DNA from: Gemmatimonadota bacterium
GTDB lineage: Bacteria; Gemmatimonadota; Gemmatimonadetes; Gemmatimonadales; Gemmatimonadaceae
DNA length: 34,736 nucleotides
Direction: 5' to 3'
Assembly: GCA_016874035.1 (NCBI GenBank)
Contig: VGVM01000027.1
Coordinates: forward strand, 1 to 34,736
Under the pieces are notes generated by a model. That model had not been told where the DNA came from and did no database searches. It saw only the letters and a program-made list of their open reading frames with translations. Below, piece by piece: positions 10,921-29,382 of this stretch (position 1 is its first letter; every line of letters begins with the position of its first letter). The position numbers and the translations under genes were made by a program.

Positions 10921-10962
10921 GCCGGCATCACGCCTCGGGCTCTACCGTTATAGCGAAAGGAT

Positions 10963-11820
10963 TCAGCCGGTAGTTCCGTCCGGTTCGGACAAGACATGCT
11001 GGGCCTCCCCTCGGCCGAAGCGGAGGAAGGCGTACGTGTCGCCGGACCGCGGATCGCAGGGCGGGAGGTCCACGAGCCGGCACCTGAGGCCGACCTCTTG
11101 CGCCATTAGATCGTAGGTCCGCACCGTGTGCCAGTACCCGTGGTCGCGGAGCTCTCCGCGCGCTGTGCGCTCTGCATATCCCGCAGCGGTCGACTTCCAG
11201 TGAAAGCTGAGGCTCCGAAGAGGCCCCGCGATCTGGCTGCTGCACATCATGAGTTGTGCTCGCGTTTCTGCGATCTTCCTGAGGAACGCGCCGAAGCGTT
11301 CCGGCGTGAACGCATAAAACACGTCCCATCCGATCACGAGGTCGAAGGCCTCAAGATCGCTGCCATCGATCGAATCGATGTCGAGCCTCACTTTCTCCAA
11401 ATGGTCGAGCGCCCGCACCGTATTCATGCGTTCGATCACAAGCGGGTCAAAATCGGACGCGACGTAGCGAAGCTCTGGGAGGCGAGCGCTAATGGCCCAA
11501 CTTGCGATCATCGTGCCGCACCCTACCTCGAGGACTGATCGGACCCCGGGTTGACCCGCGATCCAGTCGGCAAGGCGCCATCCTGAGATGAGCTTTCGTC
11601 GTTCCGGGCCAAATGCCCTGGCGAAGTAGACTTCGTCCCCACTGGGGGCTGCGCCGTCGTAACCGCGCTCGCGCGCGACCGTCCAGTCGTGCGCGGACAC
11701 GAGTGGACCCCGACCCTCGTCAAATGGCGTTGCGGCGCGATATGCGACGTAGCGGCTTGCGAACCACTGACCTAAGGCGATGTCAACGTTGACCGCGAGA
11801 CGTTTGAGATGTCGGTTCAT
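10963..11820 (-). CDS. Class I SAM-dependent methyltransferase
   Basis: A methyltransferase-like protein of 285 residues from ATG 11820; the frame extends to an ATG at 11838 and either is possible. Motif I is SVLEVGCGTMIAS, followed by LRYVASDFDPLVIERM (acidic end of beta 2), DSIDGSDLEAFDLVIGWDVFYAF and EVGLRCRLVDLP. It is on the opposite strand to its neighbours, converging on gmd with 42 bases between stops. The first ~100 residues, with many aromatic residues, do not match a family I recognise. A role in modifying the polysaccharide is suggested only by place. Confidence 0.7.
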   Translation of the reverse strand: MNRHLKRLAVNVDIALGQWFASRYVAYRAATPFDEGRGPLVSAHDWTVARERGYDGAAPSGDEVYFARAFGPERRKLISGWRLADWIAGQPGVRSVLEVGCGTMIASWAISARLPELRYVASDFDPLVIERMNTVRALDHLEKVRLDIDSIDGSDLEAFDLVIGWDVFYAFTPERFGAFLRKIAETRAQLMMCSSQIAGPLRSLSFHWKSTAAGYAERTARGELRDHGYWHTVRTYDLMAQEVGLRCRLVDLPPCDPRSGDTYAFLRFGRGEAQHVLSEPDGTTG

Positions 11821-11838
11821 TCCGGCCGGGATGGCCAA

Positions 11839-12094
11839 TCGTTGGTGGGCAAGCTCGGTGGGCGCGAGGCGAAAGCGCCCGTGAGGAAAGAAACAAATCT
11901 ATGCATAGTCAGCCACTCAGAAACGTACCGCCCGGCCGTCCGGAACGCTGCGCCACGCATAGCGGCGACCCGACTGCGCGGCAAGAGGACTCGAGACGTC
12001 GGCAACCTGCAGGTGCCGCATGATTCCGTGGCGTGATCGTGTGCCTGAGTGCAACTTAAGCGCTCAACGCTCTCGCACCCCTGACCACGAAAGC
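11839..12094. promoter_or_regulatory. Divergent intergenic region with a 10-base palindrome
   Basis: About 256 bases separate the minus-strand methyltransferase from the plus-strand DegT-fold gene, and both promoters are expected here. The centre, near 11885-11910, is locally AT-rich and holds CTATGCATAG at 11899-11908, a perfect palindrome that could be an operator or just chance. No clear -35/-10 pair was found. An open frame runs through the right part of it from 12020, but it adds no family-like residues to the DegT protein. Confidence 0.3.
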
Positions 12095-13291
12095 ATGCGC
12101 GTTCTCTACGCACAGGCAGTCTTTGGCGAAGAAGAGATCGAAGCCGTTATCGACGTTCTGCGCAATCGGCCGCTGTCGTTAATGGACGGTGAATCAGTTG
12201 CCGAGTTTGAGGGCGGCGTCGCCAAACTGTTCGGCAAGCGTCACGGCCTGATGGTCAACTCCGGGAGCTCCGCAAACGCGCTTGCCCTTGGCGCGCTGAG
12301 CCTTCCGGCGGGATCTGAGATCATCACACCGGTTTTGACGTTCGCCACAACGGTTTCCCCCATCGTCCAACAGGGCTACGTGCCGGCGTTCGTAGACGTC
12401 GAAACCGGCACGTACAACGTCGACGCGGCACACGTGGAAAGGATGATCAACTCGCGAACGCGCGCGCTCATGATACCAAACCTGATCGGGAATCTGCCCG
12501 ACTGGCGGGCTCTGCGTGACATTGCCGACAGACATTCGCTGATGATCATCGAGGATTCGGCCGACACGATCGGCAGTCTCATTCACTCCACGCCGTCCGG
12601 GCGGCTGACGGACGTCTCGACTACCAGCTTCTACGCCTCGCACGTGATGACCTGCGCCGGGTTCGGCGGCGCGGCCTGTTTTGGCCGGGATGACTTGGCC
12701 CGCCGGGCGAAGTTACTTCGAGGTTGGGGGCGAGCTTCAAGTGTCCTGAAGAACTCCGAGGATGTCGAGAGTCGGTTCGGCTCAGTGGTGGACGGCATCG
12801 AGTACGACGCCAAATTCGTCTTCGAGGCCATAGGATACAACTTCCTGCCGTCGGAGATCGCCGCGGCATTCGGCCTCGTGCAACTTCGCCGGTTGCCGGA
12901 GTATCTCGCCCGCCGCAAACGCAACTTCCAGCGCCTGCGAGAGTTCTTCTCCGCGTACGAGGAGTGGTTCATTCTTCCGCGTCAGCGCGCGGAGGTCGAA
13001 ACCGCTTGGCTTGCGCTCCCTCTGACCGTCCGGCCTGGGGCCCCCTTCAGCCGCCGCGAGATGCAGGTATTCCTAGAACAGAATAGCATCCAAACACGAA
13101 CCGTGTTCACAGGCAACATCCTGCGCCAGCCGGGCTTTGCGGGAATCAATCGGCGCGAAGCAAGTGGCGGGTATCCGAACGCTGACGCTGTCATGCGAGG
13201 CGGGCTGCTACTTGGCTGTCACCAAGGCATGACGGAGGCTCAGATGGACTACATGTGCGAACGTTTCAGGGAGTTCGCCAACCAACACTAA
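12095..13291 (+). CDS. DegT-fold PLP sugar 3-dehydratase, ColD-like (active-site His)
   Basis: A 398-residue aminotransferase-fold protein. It has NSGSSANALALGAL (55-68), DEVETG-type PAFVDVETGTYNVD, IIEDSADTIGS with Asp154 on the PLP nitrogen, and SFYASHVMTCAGFGG, where His183 takes the place of the Schiff-base lysine. A histidine here is the hallmark of 3-dehydratases: ColD (GDP-4-keto-6-deoxymannose) and RfbH/E1 (CDP-sugar). No E1-type cysteine cluster for iron-sulphur is evident and length is nearer ColD, so a PLP/glutamate-dependent ColD-like reaction is preferred. gmd upstream would supply the substrate, giving a GDP-3,6-dideoxy-4-ketosugar. ATG 12095 matches the family N-terminus; 12020 is an unlikely longer start. 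Confidence 0.82.
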   Translation: MRVLYAQAVFGEEEIEAVIDVLRNRPLSLMDGESVAEFEGGVAKLFGKRHGLMVNSGSSANALALGALSLPAGSEIITPVLTFATTVSPIVQQGYVPAFVDVETGTYNVDAAHVERMINSRTRALMIPNLIGNLPDWRALRDIADRHSLMIIEDSADTIGSLIHSTPSGRLTDVSTTSFYASHVMTCAGFGGAACFGRDDLARRAKLLRGWGRASSVLKNSEDVESRFGSVVDGIEYDAKFVFEAIGYNFLPSEIAAAFGLVQLRRLPEYLARRKRNFQRLREFFSAYEEWFILPRQRAEVETAWLALPLTVRPGAPFSRREMQVFLEQNSIQTRTVFTGNILRQPGFAGINRREASGGYPNADAVMRGGLLLGCHQGMTEAQMDYMCERFREFANQH

Positions 13292-14705: not shown

Positions 14706-15560
14706 ATGACGCGTCCCCAGCTCAAGAACATCCTCGTCCCGGTCCTGGCGCTTGCCGCGGCAACCGCCGTCTCGACTCCCGCCGGCGCGCAGGCCGCCGC
14801 CAGCCGCTTCAGCACGCAGGTGCCGGCCGCCACGCTGTCCGGTGGGTTCGGCGACATGATCCGCTCGGTCCCGGGCTTCACGGCCAGCAGCCCGAACGCG
14901 TTCGGGCTCGGGCTCGGCGACATACTCTTTGTCGGGAACTACGCCCAGATGGGGCGGAACGCGATCGTGAATGGCGCGTTCGCACCCGACGGCCCGGATG
15001 AGGGCAGTGCCAGCTTCGCCTTCGGATTGGGCAACACGAGCGGCATCGCGCTCACCACGACGATCTCCACGAACTTCACGTACAAAGCGGACCGCCTGCG
15101 GCAGACGGGCATTTCGCTCCAGGCGTCGCACCATGTGGATGCGACGCTTGCGGTCGCAGTCGGTGTCGAGAACGGCCTCGCAGCAGGAGGCTCGAACCTC
15201 GACGGCGCGGACTCCTGGTACGGCGTCGTGACCAAGGTGTTCAACCAGCCGATGAAGTCCTCGACCTGGCTCAAGTCGGTGACCATCTCGACCGGTGTCG
15301 GCAACGGACGGTTCGAGCGCATTGACCTCGACGGCAGCAATACGATTGACGCGATGGTCTTCGGTTCCGTGTCGGCCGCGGTACACGAGCAAGTCTCGCT
15401 GTTCGGCGACTTCACCGGCGCGGATATCAACTTCGGTGCGTCGGTGGTGCCGCTCAAGCGCGTCCCGCTGGTGTTCACGCCGATCATCGCCGACATCACG
15501 ACGACGGCAAGCCGTACCGCGCGGTTCGTGATGAACGCCGGCTACGCGCTGCACTTCTAA
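14706..15560 (+). CDS. Predicted outer-membrane beta-barrel protein
   Basis: A 284-residue protein starting at ATG 14706, with GGAG nine bases upstream. A signal peptide (LKNILVPVLALAAATAVS) ends near AGAQA. The mature part is rich in Gly, Ala, Ser and alternating hydrophobic residues (GIALTTTISTNFTY, SVTISTGVGNGRF) and ends in aromatic F, the usual last residue of outer-membrane barrels. I do not recognise a named family. It is the first gene of the ten-gene operon; the two following genes also encode predicted barrels. An upstream ATG-type start at 14679 adds nine residues and weakens the signal peptide. Confidence 0.75.
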   Translation: MTRPQLKNILVPVLALAAATAVSTPAGAQAAASRFSTQVPAATLSGGFGDMIRSVPGFTASSPNAFGLGLGDILFVGNYAQMGRNAIVNGAFAPDGPDEGSASFAFGLGNTSGIALTTTISTNFTYKADRLRQTGISLQASHHVDATLAVAVGVENGLAAGGSNLDGADSWYGVVTKVFNQPMKSSTWLKSVTISTGVGNGRFERIDLDGSNTIDAMVFGSVSAAVHEQVSLFGDFTGADINFGASVVPLKRVPLVFTPIIADITTTASRTARFVMNAGYALHF

Positions 15561-15573
15561 CCGGGTCCCGCCA

Positions 15574-16776
15574 GTGGTCCGGAATCGCCGATTCGCGGCG
15601 CGCACTCGGGCGTTCGCGACCGCTGCGTTCGCCGCCGGCGCCGCCAGCGCGGCATTGATCCTGGCTGCGCCGCTCGCCGCACAGTCGTCGGGCGACGCGC
15701 GCACGCCTTCCGCGTACACGTCCACCGTCATGTTCGGCACCGGGTTGATCATCATCCCGGTGGCGTGGGTTTCCCCTGAATCCGGCGACCTGTTCGCGTC
15801 GTTCTCCGCGCGCATCATCGGGCAGGGCGACATCACGCCCAAGGCGAGCGGCTCGCTCTGGGACCTGACGCAATCGGTCGAGGCGCATCTGGGCGGCCGC
15901 GTGTCGGTCGGCGCCTCGCTCTACAGCACAAAGCACCAGCAGATCGGCGGCTTCGCGCAGGCCCTTCTTGTCAGGCAATCGGACGGCGGGCCGGGATGGC
16001 TACCCTCGATTGCTGTCGGCGCGCGCAACCTTGGTTCCAGCAAGTATCAGGACCGGTTCGTCACGGGAGACAAGCGGGCCATCCACGTGCTCGAAGGCGC
16101 CGTCCAGGCGGGCCAGGGCGAGTTCAACGGGTCGCCCACGCTGTACGCCGTCGCCACGCGCGACTTCCGCGCCGGCGGCAGGCGCTCGCTCTCGCTGACA
16201 GCAGGCTATGGCAACGGGCTCTTCAAGGAAACGGGCAACCTCGGCACGGTGTACAACAAGACGGGGACGCTCGCGTCCGGCGTGTTCGGCGGAGTGCGGT
16301 TCGCGATCCCGTGGAAAGAGACGCGGCTCATCACCTTGATCGGCGAAAATGACGGATTCGATTACAACGCCGGCGCCACGATGACGCTGGGGCATCTCTC
16401 GGTGGGGTTCTACTTCACGGAACTCGAGGAGCGCCACAAGATCCCCGTCGGGCTCACGTTGGCGAACTTCACGAAGACCGCGTTCCGCCTTTCGTACAAC
16501 TCGACGTTGCAAGGCGTGATGCGCGGGGCGCGGCAGCGCGCAGAGGCATCGGACGCCAAGCTGGAACTGCGGCGCCTGCAGCAGGAAATCGCGCAGCGCC
16601 GGGCGATCACGGCACGGCTCGTTGCGGACCTGTCCAAGGCCGAAGCAGCCGCGAGCGCCGCGCGTGAAGCCAAACGTGCCACGCTCCTCAAGGAACTCGA
16701 AGCCGAGCGAGCCGCGCTGAAGGCTGCAGCGGACCGCCTCGAACAGTTGCAGCGCAAGCCGCCGGAGCGCCCATGA
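15574..16776 (+). CDS. Predicted outer-membrane barrel with C-terminal coiled coil (paralogue A)
   Basis: A 400-residue protein from GTG 15574, 13 bases after the previous stop. The signal peptide is long (hydrophobic about 16-32, cleavage near PLAAQ). Residues about 45-310 look like a beta-barrel: alternating strands and turns such as WLPSIAVGARNLG and LSLTAGYGNGLFK. From about 325 to 400 the protein is a charged heptad-type coiled coil (ELRRLQQEIAQRRAI, LEAERAALKAAADRL) ending RKPPERP. The next gene is clearly homologous over barrel and coil. A barrel in the outer membrane with a helical tail could reach into the periplasm and touch partners. Function is unknown; the resemblance to gliding-complex porin-like proteins is one of setting, not sequence. 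Confidence 0.72.
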   Translation: MVRNRRFAARTRAFATAAFAAGAASAALILAAPLAAQSSGDARTPSAYTSTVMFGTGLIIIPVAWVSPESGDLFASFSARIIGQGDITPKASGSLWDLTQSVEAHLGGRVSVGASLYSTKHQQIGGFAQALLVRQSDGGPGWLPSIAVGARNLGSSKYQDRFVTGDKRAIHVLEGAVQAGQGEFNGSPTLYAVATRDFRAGGRRSLSLTAGYGNGLFKETGNLGTVYNKTGTLASGVFGGVRFAIPWKETRLITLIGENDGFDYNAGATMTLGHLSVGFYFTELEERHKIPVGLTLANFTKTAFRLSYNSTLQGVMRGARQRAEASDAKLELRRLQQEIAQRRAITARLVADLSKAEAAASAAREAKRATLLKELEAERAALKAAADRLEQLQRKPPERP

Positions 16777-17885
16777 GCCGCCTGCCACTCGCGCGTACCG
16801 TGCTGGCGGGCCTGGCCGTGGCCGCGGGCTCCGCGCAGGCCCAGCGACCCGTGTACGGGCCGACGATGTTCTGGGAATCCGGACTGGTGAATATCCCGGC
16901 GGCCTACGTCGCTCCGCTGGGCGGCGACCTGAACGTCAGCTTCACGCGCCTGAACCTGAGCGGCACCGAGGTCGGCAGCGCGCAGTTGCTCACGGCGAGC
17001 CAGAACATCGCGCTCAGCGCCTCGCTCTGGGGCCGCGCCGAGGCGGGGATTTCCGTGTTCTCGGGCGACCTGCGCAACGGCTTCTTCGCGAAGGCGATGC
17101 TTGTGGATGAAACCGATGGCATCTGGCGCCGCGGGCTGAGGCACTGGCTCCCGAGCGTCGCGGTCGGCGTGCGAAACCTCGGCACCGAGAAGCAGCTCGA
17201 CCGGCTCGCGCTGACGGGGAACGCGAACGTCTCGACGGCGCCTTCCATGTACGGCGTGGCCACGCGGACGTTCGTGCTCGCGAAGGGGACCGACGCCGCG
17301 CACCCGAAACTCCAGGTTGGCCTGACGGCCGGCTACGGGACAGGGTTGTTCAAGGATGACGGTGGGCTCGGCGAGCGGTACGCCGCTGCGCCGACGGGCG
17401 GGGCGTTCGGCGGCGCGGTCGCCGACATCGCGCTCGGACGGAACAGTTCGCTCACGCTGATGGCCGAGCAGGACGCCTGGGACGTCAACGCGGGTGTGCG
17501 CCTGGACGTGCGCGGGCTCCGCATCGCGTATTCGATCATCGAGCTCGGCGCCGCCGAGGAACTCAAGAACGGGATCACCACGGTGGCGTCCCGGAAATCT
17601 TCGGTGACGATCGGCTGGCAGACGAACATCCTCTCGCTGGTCCGCGGGAACCGCCTCGAGGAGCGCACGGCCCGCACCGAGCAGGCGCAGGGCGACCTGC
17701 AGCGGCAGGTGCAGATCGCGCAGCAGCGCATTGACGCGATCTCGGGCCAGCTCGACGCATTGCGCGTGGTGACCGGCGCCGACCGTGCGGCGGAGCGCGC
17801 CGCACTCGAACGGCAGCTGCGCGAGGAGCAGGACACACTCAAGCGCCTGCAGGACCTCATCAAGAATCGCAAGCCGCCCGAATGA
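16773..17885 (+). CDS. Predicted outer-membrane barrel with C-terminal coiled coil (paralogue B)
   Basis: A 370-residue protein whose ATG overlaps the preceding stop (ATGA). Signal peptide is MSRLPLARTVLAGLAVAAGSAQAQ. It aligns with the previous gene product along its length: GLVNIPAAYVAP against GLIIIPVAWVSP, HWLPSVAVGVRNLG against WLPSIAVGARNLG, and LTAGYGTGLFKDDGGLG against LTAGYGNGLFKETGNLG. The coil from about residue 290 differs in sequence but ends in the same motif, RKPPE. Tandem duplication followed by divergence is the plain reading, and the pair may form a hetero-oligomer. Function is unknown. Confidence 0.73.
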   Translation: MSRLPLARTVLAGLAVAAGSAQAQRPVYGPTMFWESGLVNIPAAYVAPLGGDLNVSFTRLNLSGTEVGSAQLLTASQNIALSASLWGRAEAGISVFSGDLRNGFFAKAMLVDETDGIWRRGLRHWLPSVAVGVRNLGTEKQLDRLALTGNANVSTAPSMYGVATRTFVLAKGTDAAHPKLQVGLTAGYGTGLFKDDGGLGERYAAAPTGGAFGGAVADIALGRNSSLTLMAEQDAWDVNAGVRLDVRGLRIAYSIIELGAAEELKNGITTVASRKSSVTIGWQTNILSLVRGNRLEERTARTEQAQGDLQRQVQIAQQRIDAISGQLDALRVVTGADRAAERAALERQLREEQDTLKRLQDLIKNRKPPE

Positions 17886-18580
17886 CGCACAGCGCAGTCG
17901 GGCGTATGCAGTTGGCGGGAGGGCGCGCGGGCAGGTCACTGCTGGTCGCGCTTGCCCTGATTGCCATCGGTTCGGGCGCAAGTCCAGGGAGCGCAGCGGC
18001 GCAGGGCGCGCCGCCGCGCACGTTGCAGGATTCGCTGGAGGCCGCGCGCCGCGAGCGTTTGGCGCTCGAGGCCGCCGTGGAGCGGCAGCTGGCCGCCGGC
18101 ATGGCGGAGCGGGCACGCGCACTGGCAATGAGCCCGGAAGCCACGGCGCTGCTCAGGCTGGAGGCGCTCCTGGACTCGGCGCAGCACCGGCTCACCGCGC
18201 AGCGTGACCGGATCCGCCAGCTTCGCGATGCGACGGTGCCCACGGACAAGGCCGTCTTGGTCATCATGCTCAAGGCCGAGGGCCTGGCGGGAACCGATTT
18301 CGGCGCCACGCTGGTGATCAACGGGGTGCAGCGCGGGCCGGTGGTGTTCGCGCCGGATCGCGTACGTGCCCTCGCAGGTGGTGCCGCTGAGGAGTTGTAT
18401 CGCGGCGATGTCCCGCCGGGCGACCAGCGGATCATGATCGCGGTAGCCGGGCAATCGCTCACGGCGACCGAGACTATCGCGATGCCGGTGGCGCTGCGGG
18501 AAGTGCGCTACGTCGAGTTCGCGCTCCGCGGCGGGCGACTCGTGCCGACGTCATGGATCAGTCGCGCGGCGTCGCCCTGA
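17882..18580 (+). CDS. Exported coiled-coil protein of unknown function
   Basis: A 232-residue protein coupled to the gene before it (ATGA overlap). A signal peptide (RSLLVALALIAIGSGASPGSA) is cleaved near AAAQG. Residues about 47-120 are strongly helical and heptad-like (LEAARRERLALEAAVERQL, LEALLDSAQHRLTAQRDRI). Residues about 122-220 form a likely beta domain (KAVLVIMLKAEGL, DQRIMIAVAGQSL, VRYVEFALRGGRL). No family was recognised. Being periplasmic and between barrel and repeat-protein genes, it may link the outer-membrane parts to the rest of the machine. This is inference. Confidence 0.72.
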   Translation: MTHSAVGRMQLAGGRAGRSLLVALALIAIGSGASPGSAAAQGAPPRTLQDSLEAARRERLALEAAVERQLAAGMAERARALAMSPEATALLRLEALLDSAQHRLTAQRDRIRQLRDATVPTDKAVLVIMLKAEGLAGTDFGATLVINGVQRGPVVFAPDRVRALAGGAAEELYRGDVPPGDQRIMIAVAGQSLTATETIAMPVALREVRYVEFALRGGRLVPTSWISRAASP

Positions 18581-21500
18581 AGCTCGCGATCGCTGCGTTG
18601 GCGTGGGCGGTTGGCCAGCCCGCGCAGGCGCAGCTCCCGCTGGCGGATCTCCCTCAGGGCCAGCTGCCGCAGGCGCAGCCGACACAGCAGCCGGGCGCGT
18701 GCTATCGGGCTGTCCCGGCGGGCTCCCTCGCTGACGACCAGACGCTGGGACTCGAACGCGCGGCAGCGCTCGCGGACCTGACGGCGGGCAGGCCGTTCGC
18801 GGCGATGGATCGGCTCGAGCGGGTGATCGGGGACGTCAACTCGGGGAGCCTGCGCGGCGCCCGCGCGGCTGCGGTCGCGACGTTGGCGCGTGCATACGAC
18901 CGCTCGGGCTGCCGGGAGGCGTTCCGTGGCGTCGCCGCCAGGCTTTCGGGCACTGCGGACCTTTCCCAGGCCGATCGCACATGGCTCGACGCGCGGTCCC
19001 AGCTGAACAGCGGTCGCGCCGCCGAGGCGGCGGCAAGCGCGCCGGTGGACTCGACGACCTCGCCGTTGGCGCGGTGGAGTGCACGGGCCTCGCAGGCGAA
19101 CGCGGCGCTGGCCGCCGGGCAGACAGCGCGCGCGATCGCGCTGGTGTCGGCGTCGCTCGATTCGGCCCGCGCGCTGTCGGCTGCCGTTGACGGCGTGGTA
19201 AGTGGGCCGGGCGTTGCTGCATTCGCGCGCAATGTGGTGGCGCGGCGCGCATGGGGCGTGCTCTGGGCGCCTGCCGTTGCGGCGGGCGCTGCGGCCGGCG
19301 AAGTCGTGGCCGCCGCGAACGCCGGCGAGCTTCCCGCGGCCAGCGACACGCGCATTGCGCGGCCGGCCGATGTCCACGACGCCTTGCGCGCACTCGGCGT
19401 CCCGGGAACCGACGCCGCGATCACCTCGCTCGTGTGGGCCGATGGCGGGTCGCTCGACGAAGTGCGAACGATGGGCGACTCAGTGCGGGAGGCCGATGCA
19501 AGGTCGGCACGCGCGGCGTATCGCGCGGCGGCGCTGCGCTCAGGCCGTGCGGAACGGCTGGCGGCGGGCGCGCGATTGACGGCCGCGGTGCGCGCGACGG
19601 CCGACTCCCTGGCGCGTGAAGAGGCCACGCTGCGTGTGCTGCGCGATTCGGTCGCGCGGCAGGATTCGGCGGTGGAGCGCGGGCTGCGCACCTTCCGCAC
19701 GCAGATCGCAACGAAGGCGGCGGCCGTCCAGAACGCGGTCGCGGAGCACCTGCGCGTGCTCGACACGGTACAGGCGCAGGCGCTGCGAGTCGAAGCCACA
19801 CGGCGGATCCACGACGGCGATCGCGCGGCTGCCTCGGACTACCGGGCCGTCGCGGAGGTGACGCTCCGAACGCTGGACGGCGCGCTCGCGAGCCTGGACA
19901 TCGCGCGGCAACGCGACAGCGCGCGGGCGCGGGTCGCGCGGGTTTCGGCCTCGCTCGCTGCGGCGCGCGCGGCGCAGGACTCGGCGCTCACGATCGCGAT
20001 CGCGGCAGAGCGGCGCATCGCGGCGGACGCGGACGCCGAGATCGCGGCGGCCGACGCCGAGGTGCGGGCCGCCGACGAATCGCGATCGGCGCTAATCCAA
20101 CGGGCCACCACGACGGTCACTCAGGTGCTTGGCGCGCGGGCCCCGGCGCTGAAGGCACTCGCGGGTCAGGTCGCGGTGACCGTGGGCTTCGCGCGGGCGC
20201 ATGCGCTGTTCTTCGCGAGTGTCGAGGGCGACACGTTGCGGGCGCCGTCCGCCGAAGTGGCGCGGCGCCGCGACGCCGCGCTGGCCGCGGCGACGGAAGT
20301 GGTGGATGCCAACCAGGGCCACGCGCTCAGGCCGGCCGTGCTGTACGAACTCGGCGAGCTCCTGACCCGCAAGGCGGACGCCGACTTTGCCACCGCGCAG
20401 CGCGCGGGCAGCAACGTCGAGCGCCCGGATTACGGGCCGGCGATCGCGCGCTTCGATTCGCTGCTGACTCGCTACCCGACGGACCCGCGCGTGGATGCCG
20501 CGGCGTACACGATGGGTACGCTCGCGTTCGCGAGCGCGCGCTACGATGACGCGGCGCGCGCGTTTGGCGTGGTGATGGCGAACGAGCGCTCGGCGTTCCG
20601 CGCCGAGGGCTACTTCCGTGATGGCGACGCGAAGTTCGAGCAGGCCGTGAAGGTGGGCAGCACGACGCGGCGGGCGGCGCTGGTGTCCGCGGCGGCGTCC
20701 TACGCGCGCGTGATCGAACTCGCGCCCGGCGGCGACCTGTACTTCATGGCGCTCTACAAGCTCGGTTGGAGCAACTACATGCAGGCCGAGCGCCAGAACT
20801 CGGACGAGTATCGCGCGGCGGTGGAGCAGTTCTCGCGCCTGGTGCGTGAGGTGGACGCGCTGCCCGCCGAGCGTCAGGCCCGGCTTTCGCTGCGTCAGGA
20901 GGCGATTGACTACCTCGCGATCGCGATCACGCAGCTGGGTGGGGCGGAGGAGGCGGTGCGGTACCTGGGCGCGATCCCGGACGTGACGACGCGCATGCTC
21001 GTGCTGCGCCGTGTGGCGCACGCGTTGCGCGACCAGGGCGAGTTCGCGAGTGCCGTGATCGTGTACCGCGGCGCCGTGGAGCAGGTGCCGATGCACCCGG
21101 CGGTGCTCGACACGCGCGTGGAGTTGGTGGACCTGTTCCAGTCGCGACTGCTCGAACCGGCGCGCGCGCAGGCGGCGCGGCTGGAACTGATCGAGCACCT
21201 CGCGCCGACGTCGCCGTGGGGCACCGCGAACGCGGACAGCGGCGTGCGGCGGCGGACGGCGGTGGCGCGCGAGCGCGCGCTGCGCGAGGCGGGTTCGTAC
21301 GCGATGACGCAGCGCGGCTACGCTGACGCCGCACGGCTGTTTGCCCAGTACATGGGCGAGTTCGCCGCGGCGGATTCGGCGCAGCGGATCAGTGCGCTCG
21401 AGGGCGACGCCCGGTTCGGCGCGCGCGACTGGTACGGCTCGGGGCTGGCGCACGCGCGCACGTCCACACGCTGGGCGCGGGATTCCGTGCTCGAGGCGGC

Positions 21501-23133
21501 CGCACGGCGGAATGCCGTGGTGGCGTTCGACTCGGCGCTGGTGACGGCGCGGCGCGACGGCGCGGCGCGGCCCGCGCCACTCAAGGAAATTGAGGACTCG
21601 CTGTTCGCGGCGACCGAGCGATTCGTCGTGCGCGCGCCGCGGGCGGACGCGAAGCAGGCCCTGATCACGATGGGCCGCCGGGCGAGCGAAGCGCAGCGCT
21701 GGGACGTCGTGGTGAGCGCGTTTGCACGCGTCGCGGACGAGTGGCCGACGGACGCCATCGCGCCGGACGCGCGAAAGTTCGTTGCCGATGCGCGGTACCG
21801 GCTCGGCCAGTATGCGGCGGCACAGGCGGAATGGACGCGCGCCCGGGAGCAGGCGCTCAGGGCCACGCCGCCGCGGCGCGCGCTGGCCGATTCGATCGTG
21901 ACGGTGCGCGTTGCTGCCGCGGCGGCGGTGGCCGACTCGCTGGTAAGACGGGGCATGTTCGTGGCAGCGGCGGATTCGATCCTCGCGCCGGTTGCAGCGG
22001 ATATCGGTGACGCCACGCGGGCGGCCGACGTGCTGCGGAACGTGATCGAGGTGCACCTGGTTGCCGACAGCGTTGCCCGCGGGCGGGCGGATACCGTGGG
22101 GAGCCGGATCGCGCGAACGCGGGCCATCCGGGCGATCGAAACGCTGGCCTCGCGGTACCCGGTGTACACGCACACGCTGACCTACTCGGCGCTGCGCGCG
22201 CGGCTGCTGGTGGATGTGGGTCAGCCTGTGGATGCGGCGATGGCGCTGGAGACCCTGGCCACGACCAATGCAACCTGGGCCGGGCGCGCCGATGCGATGG
22301 TGCGCGCGGCCGTGCTGCTGGACTCGATTGGCCAACCGCGCGAGGCCGCGGCGGCGTTTGAGCGGTTTGCGGCGGCCTACCCGCGCGACGCCCGCGCGGC
22401 GGATGCGCAATACAACGCGGCGGTGATCCTGCGCGATGCGAAGCTCCCGGCGGATGCGGCGCGGGCCTTCCAGGCGTTCGCGTCGCGCTTCCCGGCAGAC
22501 ACTCGAGTGGGCGACGCGCTCGCGGCCCGCGTGCTCGCGATTCGCGCCTCGGGTGACACCACGGCGATCGCCACCGACTTGATCCGGCTGTGCGTGCGTC
22601 CGGCGGCGTCGCTTGCGGCGCTGGGCGCGGCGGCCGGGACGATCTGTGCGGACCGTACTGGCGCGCGGGAGTTCGCTGCCGGCATGACGCAGTGGGACCG
22701 GTACGCCGCGCTCAAGCTCGAGATTCGTACGCGCGCGCAGCTGACCCGCGCCGGCGTGGATGCGGCTTCTGCGACCAAGCTCGCGGTCCTCCGCTCGATA
22801 ACTGGGAGTTTCTCCCGAGCCGTGCAGACCGGTTCGGCGAACTGGGTGGCGGCCGGCACGTTCCAGTCGGGGCTCGCGCAGTGGTACTACGGTTTGTTCC
22901 TGCGCGATGTGGTGCTCCCGGCCGACCTGAGCGACGCCCAGCGGGACGGAGCGCGCAACGGCAGTGCGCAGCAGGCCCAGCAGTACTTCGACGCGGCGAT
23001 CGCGGCGTGGACAGCGCTGGTGCAGAAGGCGGAGGCCGAACAGCTGAGCGGCGCGTGGGTCGACAAGACCCGCGCGGCCCTCAAGGGCGAAGGGATTCCC
23101 CCGCGCACGCTGGCTCCGGGGGGAACGCCATGA
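18553..23133 (+). CDS. Giant exported helical-repeat (TPR-like) protein
   Basis: A 1526-residue protein whose start overlaps the previous gene by 28 bases. Signal peptide LKLAIAALAWAVGQPAQAQ is followed by a Gln/Pro-rich linker. Residues about 60-230 and 590-840 contain helix pairs like those of TPR and TolA-binding (YbgF-type) proteins: ALYKLGWSNYMQAERQ, AAYTMGTLAFASARYDDAARAF. A long Arg/Ala/Asp coiled-coil stretch fills about 270-520. More repeats run from about 1000 to 1330 (AADAQYNAAVILRDAKLPADAARAFQAFASRFP). Such proteins act as periplasmic scaffolds. The operon, with ExbB/ExbD genes after it, recalls TPR proteins of the myxobacterial Glt complex, though no orthology can be shown here. 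Third-position GC is extreme. Confidence 0.78.
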   Translation: MDQSRGVALKLAIAALAWAVGQPAQAQLPLADLPQGQLPQAQPTQQPGACYRAVPAGSLADDQTLGLERAAALADLTAGRPFAAMDRLERVIGDVNSGSLRGARAAAVATLARAYDRSGCREAFRGVAARLSGTADLSQADRTWLDARSQLNSGRAAEAAASAPVDSTTSPLARWSARASQANAALAAGQTARAIALVSASLDSARALSAAVDGVVSGPGVAAFARNVVARRAWGVLWAPAVAAGAAAGEVVAAANAGELPAASDTRIARPADVHDALRALGVPGTDAAITSLVWADGGSLDEVRTMGDSVREADARSARAAYRAAALRSGRAERLAAGARLTAAVRATADSLAREEATLRVLRDSVARQDSAVERGLRTFRTQIATKAAAVQNAVAEHLRVLDTVQAQALRVEATRRIHDGDRAAASDYRAVAEVTLRTLDGALASLDIARQRDSARARVARVSASLAAARAAQDSALTIAIAAERRIAADADAEIAAADAEVRAADESRSALIQRATTTVTQVLGARAPALKALAGQVAVTVGFARAHALFFASVEGDTLRAPSAEVARRRDAALAAATEVVDANQGHALRPAVLYELGELLTRKADADFATAQRAGSNVERPDYGPAIARFDSLLTRYPTDPRVDAAAYTMGTLAFASARYDDAARAFGVVMANERSAFRAEGYFRDGDAKFEQAVKVGSTTRRAALVSAAASYARVIELAPGGDLYFMALYKLGWSNYMQAERQNSDEYRAAVEQFSRLVREVDALPAERQARLSLRQEAIDYLAIAITQLGGAEEAVRYLGAIPDVTTRMLVLRRVAHALRDQGEFASAVIVYRGAVEQVPMHPAVLDTRVELVDLFQSRLLEPARAQAARLELIEHLAPTSPWGTANADSGVRRRTAVARERALREAGSYAMTQRGYADAARLFAQYMGEFAAADSAQRISALEGDARFGARDWYGSGLAHARTSTRWARDSVLEAAARRNAVVAFDSALVTARRDGAARPAPLKEIEDSLFAATERFVVRAPRADAKQALITMGRRASEAQRWDVVVSAFARVADEWPTDAIAPDARKFVADARYRLGQYAAAQAEWTRAREQALRATPPRRALADSIVTVRVAAAAAVADSLVRRGMFVAAADSILAPVAADIGDATRAADVLRNVIEVHLVADSVARGRADTVGSRIARTRAIRAIETLASRYPVYTHTLTYSALRARLLVDVGQPVDAAMALETLATTNATWAGRADAMVRAAVLLDSIGQPREAAAAFERFAAAYPRDARAADAQYNAAVILRDAKLPADAARAFQAFASRFPADTRVGDALAARVLAIRASGDTTAIATDLIRLCVRPAASLAALGAAAGTICADRTGAREFAAGMTQWDRYAALKLEIRTRAQLTRAGVDAASATKLAVLRSITGSFSRAVQTGSANWVAAGTFQSGLAQWYYGLFLRDVVLPADLSDAQRDGARNGSAQQAQQYFDAAIAAWTALVQKAEAEQLSGAWVDKTRAALKGEGIPPRTLAPGGTP

Positions 23134-23576
23134 CGATCGCATCACGCCGGCCAAGGCTCGTCGTCTTCGGGCTGCTGGCGCTGGCGGCCAGCGCCTCGAT
23201 GGCCCGCGGCCAGGCGGTGCAGGGAAGCCAGCCCCAGGGACAGTCCCAGGGGCAGCCCCAAGCAGCGACCCAAGGTCCGCCGCAAGGCGCGGGTCAGGCA
23301 CGCCCGGCCGCGCAGGGGGCCGCAACGGCTCGCGACAGCACGCCGCGGCTGGGCCGCCGTCGCGCGCTGGACATCCGGGCAACGGCACCTGCGCCCGAGG
23401 TGGTCACGATCCGGCCACGAGCGATCCCGGCCTTCGACCGCGCCATGGCGCTCGACTCGGTCCTCGCCCTCAGCCTGCCCCGTGGCAACGGAATGCGGGG
23501 GACAGTCGTCCTACTGCCAGGGGTGTTGCCGTTCGTCCGCCCCGATTCCGTCACCCGTCCCAACCCGCCCGAATGA
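23130..23576 (+). CDS. Small exported Gln/Gly-rich protein
   Basis: A 148-residue protein coupled at both ends by ATGA overlaps. The signal peptide (LVVFGLLALAASASMARGQA) is followed by a low-complexity tract of about 40 residues in which Gln alternates with Pro, Gly, Ser and Ala (SQPQGQSQGQPQAATQG). The rest, about residues 70-148, has no motif I know: ALDIRATAPAPEVVTIRPR and ALDSVLALSLPRGNG. A frame open further upstream lies inside the giant gene and is not used. The strict coupling argues that it is a working part of the machine, perhaps a flexible periplasmic linker. Confidence 0.7.
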   Translation: MTIASRRPRLVVFGLLALAASASMARGQAVQGSQPQGQSQGQPQAATQGPPQGAGQARPAAQGAATARDSTPRLGRRRALDIRATAPAPEVVTIRPRAIPAFDRAMALDSVLALSLPRGNGMRGTVVLLPGVLPFVRPDSVTRPNPPE

Positions 23577-24190
23577 GCACGCTCATCGAATGGTACCGCG
23601 CCGGCGGCCCGGTCATGCACGCGATCCTTGCGGTCGCGATCCTTGGCTTGGCCGTCTTCATCGAGCGCGTCTATGTCATCACGACCAACTCGCGCGGCAG
23701 CGATCGCGATTTCATTGACAAGGTCGTGGGGCTCGCGCGCACCGGAAAGACCGACGAGGCCGCGCGCCTCTGCGTCGAGCACAAGACGGCGCTCGCGTAC
23801 ATCGGCGAGCTGGTGCTCAAGAGCCCCAGCCGCAGCGAGGCCGACCTCCAGAACTCCGCGGACGCGGCGAGTGTTGCGGCCCTGCCATCGTTGACGCGCC
23901 GCCTGCATTACCTCCCGATGCTCGCGAACGTGGCGACGTTGATCGGCCTGCTCGGGACGATCTTCGGGCTGCGCGAGGCCTTCAGTTCGGTCGCGCTGGT
24001 CAGCGCGGCGGAGCGGTCCGGCAAGCTGGCGAGCGGCATCGCGGTCGCGCTGAACGCGACGGGGTTTGGCCTGATGGTGGCGATCCCGCTTTCGCTGGCC
24101 CACGGGTGGCTCACGTCGCGCGCCGAGCTGTTGATCGAGCGGGCGGACGAGTTCTCGGTCAAGCTGATCAACGCGCTCAGCGCGCGGTAA
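23573..24190 (+). CDS. MotA/TolQ/ExbB-family proton-channel (stator) protein
   Basis: A 205-residue inner-membrane protein with the three-helix layout of ExbB/TolQ/AglR: helix 1 about 14-36 (AILAVAILGLAVFIERVYV), a cytoplasmic domain, helix 2 about 118-140 with NVATLIGLLGTIFGLREAF, and helix 3 about 158-180 with ALNATGFGLMVAIP. The GLLGT.FG and AL.AT..GL.VAIP signatures are those of the family. It forms a pentamer around two ExbD-type helices and conducts protons to drive movement in the periplasm. It is coupled to the gene before (ATGA) and sits 21 bases before the first ExbD-type gene. Confidence 0.93.
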   Translation: MSTLIEWYRAGGPVMHAILAVAILGLAVFIERVYVITTNSRGSDRDFIDKVVGLARTGKTDEAARLCVEHKTALAYIGELVLKSPSRSEADLQNSADAASVAALPSLTRRLHYLPMLANVATLIGLLGTIFGLREAFSSVALVSAAERSGKLASGIAVALNATGFGLMVAIPLSLAHGWLTSRAELLIERADEFSVKLINALSAR

Positions 24191-24211
24191 GCGAGAGGCA
24201 TCGGGGCGGGC

Positions 24212-24727
24212 GTGGCGTCCACCTACTTCCACCGCACGCGGCTCCGCCGCAAGGCGCAGAAGGCGGCACTCGGCGAGGAGATCAACCTCGTGCCGCTGGT
24301 GGATATCCTCACGTCCATCGTGTTCTTCTCGCTGCTCACCTACGCGGGCAGCGCGCTCGCGGCGCTGACGAGTTTCGACCTGACGCTCCCGCCGACCGTG
24401 GTGAACCAAGCGCAGGCGGCGCAGCTGCGCGAGAAGGAAGTGCTGAACCTCCTGCTCGCGGTGCGGGTCTATGACGACCGGCTCGAAATCGAGCATTCCG
24501 CGGATGGCGGGTACCGGCGCGTGATCTTCGGCATCGCGGGCGTGTCGCTCGACACGCTCGAGACCGAGATGGCCGCGATCCGCGAGAAGTACCCGGAGAA
24601 CCGCGACGTGCTCGTGGTTCCCGCCGACGGGATCAGCTATGATGGCATCGTGCAGATCCTCGAACGGCTAAAGCGCGCGCGCTACAGCGGCATTGCGCTC
24701 GGCACGCGGTCGCGGGCCCGCTCATGA
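24212..24727 (+). CDS. ExbD/TolR-family protein, copy 1
   Basis: A 171-residue protein from GTG 24212. A basic cytoplasmic N-terminus leads to one membrane helix, INLVPLVDILTSIVFFSLL, with Asp31 at the proton-binding place of ExbD/TolR/MotB. The periplasmic part, about residues 55-165, has the family end YDGIVQILERLKRARYSGIALGT. It should pair with copy 2 in the ExbB-type pentamer. Compared with usual ExbD the INVTPLID segment is altered to INLVPLVD. GTG is taken as start since it keeps the short basic leader; no strong ribosome binding site decides it. Confidence 0.9.
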   Translation: MASTYFHRTRLRRKAQKAALGEEINLVPLVDILTSIVFFSLLTYAGSALAALTSFDLTLPPTVVNQAQAAQLREKEVLNLLLAVRVYDDRLEIEHSADGGYRRVIFGIAGVSLDTLETEMAAIREKYPENRDVLVVPADGISYDGIVQILERLKRARYSGIALGTRSRARS

Positions 24728-25296
24728 GCCGCGCGCGCGAAGAGCGCCGCATGCGGCGTATCAAGCAGTTCGCGAAGTTCCGGATCGTCCAGCTGAACCT
24801 CGTGCCGCTGGTGGACACGTTCGTGTCGATCGTGTTCTTCGCGCTCACGACCTCCAGCGTGGGCGAGCTCGCGCCCGTCGTGCCCGGCGTGACACTGCCC
24901 CAGGCCAGCGTCGGGATGAACGCGCTCTCGCAGTTGACGCTGGGAGTGGGCGCGGACGTCACGTTGGCGAACCGCCCGGTCATGAGCACCGTTGATGCCG
25001 CGCTGTCGGCTTCGGACGATCCGGGCCAGCCGCTCAAGATTCCCCAGCTGTACAGCGAGCTCCGCACCATGGCGGATTCGCTGCGGCGCGCGCGCGGCCT
25101 GCCGGCGGACCAGGATCTCGACACGCCGCTCGCGATCCAGGGCGACAAGACGATGCGATTCGACCTGTTGTCGCGATTCATGCAGACGGCGCGACTGGCG
25201 GGTTTCCGGCGGATCTCGCTGCAGGTTGAGCGCGTGTCGCCACCGGACGAAGCCGCGGCCGGCGCCCCTGCGCCGACAGGCCCGGGACCGGACTGA
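24724..25296 (+). CDS. ExbD/TolR-family protein, copy 2
   Basis: A 190-residue protein coupled to copy 1 by an ATGA overlap. The basic leader is followed by LNLVPLVDTFVSIVFFALT with Asp31 at exactly the same place as in copy 1. The periplasmic part has diverged: the last helix (FDLLSRFMQTARLAGFRRISLQVER) is kept, but an insertion around residues 60-120 and a Pro/Ala tail are different. Two unlike ExbD proteins with one ExbB protein is the pattern of AglR-AglQ-AglS and of some Tol/Exb variants, and suggests a hetero-pair inside the stator. Confidence 0.9.
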   Translation: MSRAREERRMRRIKQFAKFRIVQLNLVPLVDTFVSIVFFALTTSSVGELAPVVPGVTLPQASVGMNALSQLTLGVGADVTLANRPVMSTVDAALSASDDPGQPLKIPQLYSELRTMADSLRRARGLPADQDLDTPLAIQGDKTMRFDLLSRFMQTARLAGFRRISLQVERVSPPDEAAAGAPAPTGPGPD

Positions 25297-26165
25297 TGGA
25301 CGAGACCCGCCCGCTGATCATCTCGCAGGCCGTGTCGGTCTCGATCGGCCTCGCGTGGCTGGCGCTGGTGTACTTCACGCCCGTGCCGCCGCCCGCGATC
25401 GCGCTGATCCGGCCCGAGGAAGCGGCCGCTGTCGAAGTGGAGTTCGAGGACGAGCGGCCGAAGCCGAACCAACCGGAGGCGCCCAAGCCGGAGGACACCG
25501 CGCCGACGCCTGAAGCAAAGGCCGAGGCGCGGGCAAAGCGTGAGGCCCAAGAAGCCGGCGACGCGTTTGGCGGCGCCGCACCTGCGCCCGTCGCGGACAT
25601 CACGAATGCGCTGCGCGGCGTTGAGGTGGGGCGTGGTGGCGGCGGTGCGGGCGCAGCCGGCGGGGCGGGCACGGGCGGTGGCAAGGCGGTCATCGCGTAC
25701 GGCGACGGCGGTGCAGGGTCGCGCACGCCGGGCCGGGGCATGGACCCGTCCGTTGCGGCGGCCGGCGAAGGGATCGGGCGCGTGGGAGCGAGCGGCAGTG
25801 TCTCGCGCACGAACATCGCCGTCTCGGCGCCAACCGTCGTGCGCTCCGCCGACGGCGGCGCGAGCGGGCGCGACATGGCGCGGCTTGGCACGTTCGCGCG
25901 CGGTCGCCAGGCGCAACTGCAGTTCTGTTACCGTGACGTCGGCCTCAACGTGAACCCGAACCTTAGTGGTTCCGTGAGTGTCGCCATCACGCTCGACGCG
26001 GCGGGGCGCGTGAGCGAATCGCGCATCGCCAACCGGACGTGGAGCGGCGCCGGCGTGCAGGAAACCGAAGCGTGCATCCTTTCGCGCGTGGACAGCTGGG
26101 CGTTCCCGGCCTCGTCGAAAGCGGGCGCCGAGACCTACAACTTCTCGTTCATCTTCAACAAATGA
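25296..26165 (+). CDS. TonB-like protein with AgmX/GltJ-type C-terminal domain
   Basis: A 289-residue protein that starts one base into the previous stop (TGATG). One membrane helix lies near residues 8-28. An acidic/proline-rich spacer (VEVEFEDERPKPNQPEAPKPE) recalls TonB, then comes a glycine-rich tract about 108-195. The C-terminal domain, about 200-289, follows the AgmX/PglI pattern: QLQFCYRD, NPNLSGSVSVAITLDAAGRV, a Trp, Cys260 and WAFPAS, ending NFSFIFNK. Cys211 and Cys260 are placed to form a disulfide. It would carry force or signal from the ExbB/ExbD motor across the periplasm. GltJ of myxobacteria has a similar end; the cytoplasmic zinc-finger part of GltJ is missing here. Confidence 0.83.
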   Translation: MDETRPLIISQAVSVSIGLAWLALVYFTPVPPPAIALIRPEEAAAVEVEFEDERPKPNQPEAPKPEDTAPTPEAKAEARAKREAQEAGDAFGGAAPAPVADITNALRGVEVGRGGGGAGAAGGAGTGGGKAVIAYGDGGAGSRTPGRGMDPSVAAAGEGIGRVGASGSVSRTNIAVSAPTVVRSADGGASGRDMARLGTFARGRQAQLQFCYRDVGLNVNPNLSGSVSVAITLDAAGRVSESRIANRTWSGAGVQETEACILSRVDSWAFPASSKAGAETYNFSFIFNK

Positions 26166-26779
26166 GATCGTTCGATTTCGCGCGTTGCGTGAGACTGGCT
26201 GCGATAATCGTGTCCGCCGGCGTTGGCGCGGCCGGCTGTGGCGGCGATTCGGGTTCCGCCGCGGGTGGGGCGGCAGCGTCGGGTGCGACGGGCGGTGCGA
26301 GCGCCGTGGACAGCAGCGCGATGGCCGCGCCCGGTGGTGCGGCCGCTGGCGGTGCGGCTGCGATCGTTGCCGCGCCGGAGCCTGCGAAGCCCGTGGATCT
26401 CTCGAACCTCAAGGCGAACATCCCGAAGGCGTCGAGCGAAACGTTCACGTTTCGGCCGCTCAAGGTCGAGCAGATCGCCGATGCGCCGCCTGCGCTCATG
26501 GATGCCGCGGAGCGTGAGCAGGGGATTTCCCGGTTCTGCTACCAGGAGTTCGGCCAGAAGGTTGACCCGAAGTTGATCGGCGCGGTGGCGCTCGTGGTGA
26601 CGGTGCGGGCGAACGCAATCGTGGACATCCGGATCGGCGCCGACGACTGGTCGTCGTCCGTGGGCCGCGCGGTGGACCGCTGCCTGATCCAGAAGACGCC
26701 GCAGGCCTGGAAGCTCCTGCCCGACGCGCGCGTGGCGGACGGGCGGTACGTCGTCCAGCTGCAGTTCCGGCCGAGCTGA
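26162..26779 (+). CDS. Lipoprotein with a Cys-pair domain related to AgmX C-terminus
   Basis: A 205-residue protein coupled to the gene before (ATGA). Signal peptide ends at AAGC, so Cys26 is a likely lipidation site; an Ala/Gly-rich linker follows to about residue 75. The folded end has RFCYQEFG, VDPKLIGAVALVVTV, a Trp, then RCLIQKTPQAWKL. Cys126 and Cys174 are 48 residues apart and the NP/DP-x-L-x-G-x-V and Trp landmarks match the C-terminal domain of the preceding protein. It is probably the outer-membrane-anchored counterpart of that protein. A further minus-strand relative is at 28888-29382. Confidence 0.78.
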   Translation: MRSFDFARCVRLAAIIVSAGVGAAGCGGDSGSAAGGAAASGATGGASAVDSSAMAAPGGAAAGGAAAIVAAPEPAKPVDLSNLKANIPKASSETFTFRPLKVEQIADAPPALMDAAEREQGISRFCYQEFGQKVDPKLIGAVALVVTVRANAIVDIRIGADDWSSSVGRAVDRCLIQKTPQAWKLLPDARVADGRYVVQLQFRPS

Positions 26780-27893: not shown

Positions 27894-28895
27894 ATGCACC
27901 CGCAGGCGCTGGAACTCGACGTCATCGTCACGCGCGGCCCGCTGACGGAGTCGCGGCACCTCGTGCACGGCGCGGCGGTTTCCTTCAATGGCGACATCGT
28001 GGCGTCGGCGCGCAATGTCGAGCTCGAGACGATGTGGCGCTCGTGCTCGAAGATGTTCCAGGTGATCCCGTTCCTCGCCTCGGGCGGCTTCGACCAGCTG
28101 CAGTGGACAGCCGAGATGCTCTCGCTGGCCTGCGCGTCGCACGGCGGCGAACCGGAGCACGTCGCGCTGGCGGCGAGGATGCTGGAGTCCGCCGGGCTGA
28201 CCGAGAGTGACCTTGCCTGCGGGCCGCATGAACCGCTTTCCGTGCGTGGCGAGCGGATCGCGCGCGAGTCGGGGGCTCCGCTTACGCGGCTACACAACAA
28301 CTGCTCCGGGAAACACGCGGCGATGCTCGCGCGCGCGAAGACTGCGGGATGGCCCACGCATGGTTACGAGAAGGTCCAGCATGCGGTGCAGCAGTCGTGC
28401 CTCGCCGAAGTCGCCATGTGGACCGATGTCCCGGTCGGCGACCTGCGGCTCGGCGTGGACGGCTGTGGCGTGGTCGTGATGGGGCTGCCGCTCGACCGAA
28501 TGGCGCTGGCCTACGGCCGCTGGGCGCAGGCGATCGCGACCGGCGACGAGATCCCCTCGCGCACTGCGGCGGCAATCGCCGCGCACCCGCACTTGCTCGG
28601 CGGCACCGACCGGTTCGACACGATCCTGATCGAGGAGACGAACGGCGCGGTCATCTCAAAGGTCGGCGCGGAGGGCGTCCATTGCGCCGCAGTGCCCGGT
28701 TTGGGGCTTGGCGTGGCGATAAAGGTCGAGGACGGTTCGCTGCGCGCGCAGCATATCGCCATCCTCACCGCGCTTCAGGCCGTGGGTGCGCTTCCGGCGG
28801 TCCTGCCGCCACGCCTCGCCGACTGGCTCGAGAAGCCGGTCAAGAACACGCGTGGCGACGTGGTCGGCGCGGTCCGGTCAGCCAGGCCTATTTGA
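27894..28895 (+). CDS. Asparaginase, Rhizobium etli type (AsnA/ReAV family)
   Basis: A 333-residue cytoplasmic enzyme that hydrolyses asparagine to aspartate and ammonia. It is of the family unrelated to E. coli asparaginases. Ser50 and Lys53 (RSCSKMFQ) and Ser82 (CASHGGE) align with the catalytic Ser-Lys tandem known in ReAV, and the zinc-site residues are seen as Cys138 (NNCSGKHAAML) and Asp190/Cys192 (DGCG). The start follows the kinase gene by 12 bases, so the two may be co-transcribed. It converges with the minus-strand lipoprotein gene, their ends overlapping by eight bases. Confidence 0.87.
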   Translation: MHPQALELDVIVTRGPLTESRHLVHGAAVSFNGDIVASARNVELETMWRSCSKMFQVIPFLASGGFDQLQWTAEMLSLACASHGGEPEHVALAARMLESAGLTESDLACGPHEPLSVRGERIARESGAPLTRLHNNCSGKHAAMLARAKTAGWPTHGYEKVQHAVQQSCLAEVAMWTDVPVGDLRLGVDGCGVVVMGLPLDRMALAYGRWAQAIATGDEIPSRTAAAIAAHPHLLGGTDRFDTILIEETNGAVISKVGAEGVHCAAVPGLGLGVAIKVEDGSLRAQHIAILTALQAVGALPAVLPPRLADWLEKPVKNTRGDVVGAVRSARPI

Positions 28896-29382
28896 ACTGC
28901 GCCTGCGTGATGTAGGACGCGGGCTTGCCGAAAGTGGCGTCAAGCTTCCACTTCGCGGCCGCAAGGTTCAGGCATGAGTTCACGATGTTGCCGGCCTGCG
29001 ACGTCCACTGGCTTTCCTGAACGCGAATCACGTTCGTGCCCACCACGCTCATGAACGTGAAGAACGTGACCGTACCGGCGAGGTATGGGTCTGCCTGACG
29101 ACCGTTCAGGAAGCACTCGGTCTTGCCGGCCAGCGCGGCCAGCGTGTCGCGCAGCCGCACGCTCCCGACCTCGTAGCCCGCCCCGAGCTTCTGCACCACG
29201 GAGCTGGCGGTGACCGCCTGGTTGAGCACCGAATCCGCGTAAGCCTGCTGCGCCTTGCGGAAGTCGTCGGGCGATACGGTTGGCTTGTTCGCGGCCGGGT
29301 CGGCCGGCTTCGAATCGCCGCCGCAGGCCGCGAGGCCGGCGATGAGGAGTGCCGCAACAAGTCTCTGGGGAATCGTGTTCAT
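28888..29382 (-). CDS. Lipoprotein with Cys-pair domain, third relative
   Basis: A 164-residue protein on the minus strand with GGAG about ten bases before its ATG. Signal peptide ends LAAC, so Cys20 is probably lipidated; the next residues GGDS are the same as in the lipoprotein at 26162. The end of the protein has Cys90, then DPYLAGTV, a Trp, Cys137 and LAAAKWKL, with 47 residues between the cysteines. This matches the landmarks of the two operon proteins. It may work with the same machine although it is transcribed apart from it; no family name was recognised. Confidence 0.78.
   Translation of the reverse strand: MNTIPQRLVAALLIAGLAACGGDSKPADPAANKPTVSPDDFRKAQQAYADSVLNQAVTASSVVQKLGAGYEVGSVRLRDTLAALAGKTECFLNGRQADPYLAGTVTFFTFMSVVGTNVIRVQESQWTSQAGNIVNSCLNLAAAKWKLDATFGKPASYITQAQFK

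Follow-up and report, generated by a model that had tools for sequence, protein, structure and literature searches.

A conserved Gemmatimonadaceae operon encoding a putative envelope machine of the Agl-Glt core class

An eleven-gene operon and its predicted products

The window examined here, a stretch of 34,736 nucleotides, is a whole contig (VGVM01000027.1, our C27) of a 3.08 Mb, 99.5% complete draft genome (GCA_016874035.1) of a soil-type bacterium from the Gemmatimonadaceae, whose nearest named relatives are metagenome-assembled genomes of the same family. It carries an operon of eleven genes (G1-G11, positions 14706-26779, all on the + strand; Table 1), in which an ExbB/ExbD-type motor and a TonB-like transducer stand with a large TPR protein and predicted outer-membrane barrels, and which we relate below to the Agl-Glt core complex. 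Checking of open reading frames and junctions placed ATGA overlaps at 16773, 17882, 23130, 23573, 24724, and 26162, a TGATG overlap at 25296, and a 28-base overlap at 18553-18580, with gaps of 13 and 21 bases at the two other junctions. An original prediction, made from the sequence alone, had described a coupled operon of ten genes; the coupling and all ten of the junctions that it listed are as claimed, although ten junctions imply eleven genes. Its domain calls (MotA_ExbB, two ExbD, an AgmX C-terminal domain, and TPR/YbgF-like repeats) were likewise reproduced. G1-G4, G6, and G11 had no match of credible score in Pfam or NCBIfam, and a sigma-70 promoter scan found none.

Table 1. Features of the operon, in coordinates of the window
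Feature	Coordinates	Strand	Basis or remark
G1, exported barrel-like protein, 284 aa	14706..15560	+	13-base gap before G2; non-core neighbour
G2, predicted outer-membrane barrel B with long C-terminal helix	15574..16776	+	AlphaFold model, PDB matches
C-terminal ~80-residue helix of G2, predicted periplasmic coiled coil	16507..16755	+	model helix 312-394
G3, predicted outer-membrane barrel C, G2 paralogue, coiled-coil tail	16773..17885	+	BLAST, alignment
G4, periplasmic helical hairpin and beta-sandwich	17882..18580	+	model pLDDT 80
G5, 1526-aa TPR scaffold, two-protein fusion	18553..23133	+	TIGR02795 1e-21
G6, small exported protein	23130..23576	+	present in every spanning locus
G6 conserved motif RALDIRATAPAPEVVTIRPRAIPAFDR, TonB-box-like	23361..23441	+	26/26 homologues
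G7, ExbB/TolQ/AglR-type stator	23573..24190	+	PF01618 2e-21, tree
G8, ExbD line 1, Asp31 in transmembrane helix	24212..24727	+	PF02472 1e-10
G9, ExbD line 2, Asp31 in transmembrane helix	24724..25296	+	PF02472 1e-11
G10, inner-membrane-anchored TonB/GltG-like transducer	25296..26165	+	transmembrane helix, linker, AgmX domain
AgmX-type C-terminal domain of G10, Cys211 and Cys260 invariant	25896..26159	+	NF033768 59.9 bits, cut-off 40
G11, lipoprotein, second AgmX-type domain (residues about 111-204), Cys126 and Cys174 invariant	26162..26779	+	hhalign

Phylogenetic trees, for which Tol/Ton proteins of this genome, E. coli, and other Gammaproteobacteria served as outgroups, placed the stator G7 with the stators of gammaproteobacterial core clusters (hereafter gamma clusters) and apart from Tol/Ton (bipartition 100/96), and the grouping was stable when outgroups were varied or fewer (99/95 and 100/100). 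The two ExbD proteins behaved in the same way, G8 grouping with gamma ExbD1 (93/89) and G9 with gamma ExbD2 (97/84), although several long branches in these trees make the exact depth of the groupings unsure. In G7, the glutamate of the third transmembrane helix (TM3) is replaced by Val at residue 158. This glutamate, part of a GIAEAL motif, is lost in the operon and gamma core stators and kept in ExbB/TolQ of this genome and of E. coli, and the common loss therefore supports a single stator class comprising the operon and the gamma clusters. Asp31 is invariant in the alignments of both G8 and G9. By way of the gammaproteobacterial core proteins, the operon thus has a stator of AglR type and two ExbD proteins of the AglQ/AglS kind.

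The original prediction had also listed one stator with two unlike ExbD proteins among the parts of the Agl-Glt motor. As a mark of an Agl motor this combination fails, since a TonB operon of the same genome (contig C41, L064:6866-9274) has one ExbB, two ExbD, and a TonB-like transducer as well; it differs from the operon studied here in its separate tree lineage, in keeping the TM3 glutamate, and in having no barrel, TPR, or G4 genes adjoining.

The predicted transducer G10 has one predicted transmembrane helix, a Pro/Gly-rich linker, and a C-terminal domain that matches NF033768 (AgmX/PglI C-terminal domain) above its cut-off (E 1e-15) and the C-terminal part of the GltG model NF033760 (E 1.4e-14); profile comparison with the gamma transducers gave E 1e-12. 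G11 had been described as a Cys-pair lipoprotein, which is accurate for its lipobox and Cys pair, both kept in relatives, and incomplete in that it carries a second AgmX-type domain, aligning with the end domain of G10 over 90 columns (hhalign 97.9%, E 5e-13). The Cys pair lies at matching positions in the two families. PDB sequence searches with profiles of G10, G11, and G4 returned nothing useful. A further small lipoprotein with a G11-like Cys-pair pattern is encoded in the window downstream of an asparaginase gene (28888-29382, - strand). The G11 profile picks up its equivalents in L036 and L038 (at 48 and 56 bits), and same-genus genomes that lack the operon retain the gene too. A lone G10-like transducer was found at L118:6291-7115 (G048 contig C96) with no motor genes found nearby, the barrel-TPR half of the operon lying on another contig of that genome.

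Three outer-membrane barrels had been predicted as machine parts, and two of these fit. The AlphaFold model of G2 has about 12 antiparallel strands followed by a helix (residues 312-394), with a mean predicted local distance difference test score (pLDDT) of 63.6; its top PDB matches (Foldseek, VIA-align) are nearly all outer-membrane barrels (best Z 9.3), and the tail helix, mostly at pLDDT 76-92, is conserved in the alignment. G3 matches G2 orthologues by BLAST at 1e-32 to 1e-47. With one of the two modelled, G2 and G3 are thus predicted to be paired outer-membrane barrels. Such pairs were found in 22 of 395 genomes of the phylum, all in one family and spread over ten genera. Distant G2/G3 homologues also occur in other Gemmatimonadota families (L096-L106), with no motor genes in those loci read, and several stand in an apparent cytochrome c biogenesis neighbourhood. 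That barrel genes always accompany motors is hence false in general, and G2 and G3 belong to a Gemmatimonadota barrel family that exists also without a motor.

For G1 (barrel A), the barrel call comes from weak homology: a G1 relative in L026 matches G2 at 4e-6. In the same genus, genomes that have no operon (L170, L168, and L172) carry G1 homologues close to hldE, and on this ground G1 was rejected as a machine part; none were found in other genera. The block hldE-asparaginase-obg is largely kept in the genus, with or without the operon. In L174, L173, and the window the operon adjoins hldE, and G1 may lie to either side of it. The most fitting reading of G1 is therefore a gene that belongs to the site, a locus neighbour.

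Between barrels and motor lie three predicted envelope proteins. The model of G4 combines a helical hairpin with an eight-stranded sandwich; naming a family by fold was given up, the beta-sandwich being too common (best Z 8.7). G5, predicted as a single 1526-residue repeat protein, does consist of TPR/YbgF/BamD-like repeats (Pfam, NCBIfam), but its counterpart in most relatives is two separate genes (G5a/G5b), and hence the protein is a fusion. Across 26 homologues of G6, the first 21 residues of the motif have a mean identity of 76%, against 29% for the rest of the protein. The motif core, TPQVVTV in most relatives and APEVVTI in the window, is one that we take to resemble a TonB box.

Conservation of the operon and its gammaproteobacterial counterparts

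A profile scan with ExbD2 that covered 84,980 species genomes returned 26 Gemmatimonadota relatives, no myxobacterial locus, and two distant gammaproteobacterial matches, one of which (L062) is a generic ExbD beside an MsbA-like gene. The order G2-G3-G4-G5-G6-G7-G8-G9-G10 (15574-26165) is kept in 26 loci and the window, wherever the contig reaches; the block is complete in 15 loci and contradicted in none, and its being kept in all 15 spanning loci is therefore not chance. As the original prediction would have it, barrels B and C and the repeat gene are always found together with the motor at operon loci. Most searched genomes of the window's genus are without the operon. Members of the window's clade have G11 close behind G10; in other loci it stands a few kb further downstream. 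Around G11 in seven loci of other genera (L043, L046, L051, L052, L054, L055, and L057) are TPM (YgcG-like), nucleotidyltransferase, and LemA genes, apart from L046, where no nucleotidyltransferase match was found near G11; further downstream in these loci are SusC-like TonB-dependent receptor genes, which differ between groups.

The Agl-Glt/Agl-Nfs core complex ("Group B") was described as gltC, gltD, gltE, gltG, aglR, aglQ, and aglS, which in Gammaproteobacteria lie together in one region, joined by a single additional gene (PMC3169522). Searching 185 gammaproteobacterial genomes with a GltG profile yielded candidate core clusters, and ten of these were read. Their order is a G4-like gene, two TPR genes, a TPR protein or lipoprotein, often a small exported protein, ExbB, two ExbD, and a GltG-like transducer, with contig ends and single missing genes in some; the G4-like gene is present in eight of the ten. 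The gamma TPR protein that precedes ExbB matches GltE at 3.6e-11 (L134). By gene content and order, these clusters fit the published core complex.

Where the original prediction saw the parts list of the Agl-Glt motor, kinship of the operon with that system is borne out by the stator and ExbD trees and by these clusters, whose gene order is identical and which have a homologue in nearly every place. G5b aligns with the large gamma TPR protein over 882 columns (hhalign 100%, E 7.5e-50), as a GltD-like TPR protein would. G5a aligns with the gamma protein Ta (96.5%, E 7e-10), a GltC-like comparison in which repeats can mislead. G4 aligns with the gammaproteobacterial G4-like protein (96.2%, E 2.6e-9), which opens most gamma clusters, and may be the extra gene of the gammaproteobacterial core. 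The clustering of core genes is seen both in the 26 loci and in the gamma clusters. DUF3570 genes stand directly upstream of two of the gamma clusters (L134:18501-19640 and L136:28-1047), where they hold the position of the barrels and may be the outer-membrane partner.

The operon and the Agl-Glt core are thus alike in gene order, stator and ExbD lineages, large TPR scaffold, GltG-type end domain, and clustering, whereas the operon adds a barrel pair and a lipoprotein that repeats the transducer domain, has its TPR proteins fused, and belongs to a different phylum. In Myxococcus, a TPR protein is bound by GltA and GltB, themselves paralogous barrels (PMC4488436). By description, G2 and G3 resemble this arrangement of two paralogous outer-membrane barrels with a periplasmic TPR protein (GltC), although they have long C-terminal helices and their family also occurs motor-free. 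A more distant likeness is to the TPR-TolQ-TolR-TolR-vWA clusters of the Planctomycetes-Verrucomicrobia-Chlamydiae group, which also combine a TPR gene, one stator, two unlike TolR, and a tethered transducer; that transducer ends in a vWA fold and has a conserved transmembrane-helix His, whereas G10 ends in an AgmX/TonB-type domain and its His is unconserved (PMC12204202).

Upstream of the operon, positions 280-13288 of the window hold sugar-nucleotide, sugar-transferase, and glycosyltransferase genes, as in a surface polysaccharide cluster, and tRNA and cytochrome genes separate these from the operon.

A proposed machine and its alternatives

At the level of sequence comparison, the parts, their conserved order, their homology to the gamma clusters, and the motor aspartates are established. 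We consider it probable that the operon encodes a proton-motive-force machine of the Agl-Glt core class, for which the moving or loading of a surface polymer or adhesin is favoured over gliding as the output. We infer assembly, direction of force, and output as follows. G7, G8, and G9 would form a stator-type motor in the inner membrane, in which proton flow drives the transducer G10. The flexible linker of G10 would cross the periplasm, and its TonB/AgmX-type end would cyclically grip a partner in the periplasm or outer membrane, for which the G6 motif and the lipoprotein twin G11 are the likeliest candidates. In the Agl-Glt system, GltAB carry possible TonB boxes, and both GltG and GltJ are TonB-like (PMC5349195). 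G5 and G4 would pass the force to G2 and G3 via their coiled-coil tails, and the outer-membrane complex would be pulled or shifted by the force on the barrels, moving or loading a surface polymer or adhesin, with gliding also possible. A bolder version, which we offer tentatively and regard as rather unlikely when taken as a whole, is a Glt-type machine beyond the known phyla with a rebuilt outer-membrane end, in which the Cys-pair domains of G10 and G11 meet across the envelope, G6 provides the grip, and the barrels are moved for polymer transport or gliding.

Several observations weigh against assignment to the Agl-Glt core class. The link to AglR and GltG runs via the gammaproteobacterial clusters and NCBIfam models. 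Against the GltG equivalog, whose cut-off is 650 bits, G10 reaches 53.6 bits, and it lacks the FHA part of GltG; nor does the operon contain a gene for a TPR lipoprotein like GltE. Comparison of G6 with the small exported protein of the gamma clusters was insignificant (hhalign probability 7%), leaving a suggestive motif in place of homology. Moreover, the motor-binding His of TonB and TolA, which is common to TonB, TolA, and vWA transducers (PMC12204202), is unconserved in the transmembrane helix of G10, and contact with the motor may therefore differ.

That the operon is an additional Tol-Pal-like system, serving in outer-membrane tethering or in division, is very improbable. TolQ and TolR are the best NCBIfam equivalogs of G7 and G8, and G5 matches YbgF/CpoB repeats, but G7 reaches 64 of the 221 bits required for TolQ and G8 26 of the 127 bits required for TolR; there is, as the original prediction noted, no TolB or Pal among the eleven genes, the genome encodes TolQ and TolR on another contig (C43), and the trees separate the two groups. 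Scores for the NCBIfam ExbB and ExbD equivalogs are similarly far below their cut-offs (27.7/206 and 13.4/153 bits), so that placement by profile in either a Tol-Pal or a TonB uptake system was not seen. Somewhat less improbable, though still a poor bet, is a dedicated TonB-like energy system for an uptake channel, whether the barrels themselves or TonB-dependent receptors nearby or elsewhere. The TonB-like G10 and the TonB-box-like motif of G6 would suit such a role, as would the SusC-like genes downstream in the seven loci from other genera, in one of which receptor domains were demonstrated. However, no TonB-dependent receptor is encoded in the window's operon or in its nearest relative (L036), the nearby receptors of other genera are unlike one another (27-28% identity between groups), TPR and G4 proteins are not Ton parts, and a separate TonB-ExbB-ExbD-ExbD operon exists in this genome.

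Homology to the Agl-Glt core also raises the alternative of a gliding-motility engine, in which the barrels would carry adhesin or slime contact and the motor would move them along the cell, as in Myxococcus. The paired barrels, as in GltA/GltB (PMC4488436), point in the same direction. The genome also encodes an MglA-like/MglB-like gene pair elsewhere (L176), and such pairs are not specific to gliders. Against gliding, bacteria with no known gliding also possess the core complex, whose genes do not by themselves drive motility (PMC3169522). The model for GltJ found nothing up to E 1, and no homologue of GltF, GltH, GltI, GltK, AglZ, or CglB was identified, none having been specifically searched for. 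We found no literature report tying gliding to this system in Gemmatimonadota, nor one of such an envelope machine in the phylum. Gliding, argued from homology, is thus possible and not favoured, and we judge a gliding engine unlikely.

Implications for the Agl-Glt core

If the favoured assignment is right, the operon would extend machines of the Agl-Glt core class to the Gemmatimonadota. New here are the tandem barrels with predicted long C-terminal helices, the lipoprotein with a second AgmX-type domain, and the TonB-box-like motif of G6. Outside gliders, the core has been described as genes of unknown function (PMC3169522), and the operon bears on its ancestral job. In this operon, the core is tied within one conserved gene order to a pair of predicted barrels, a lipoprotein whose domain mirrors that of the transducer, and a short, conserved, grip-like motif, which together offer concrete, testable contacts through which the force of a proton motor may reach the outer membrane.

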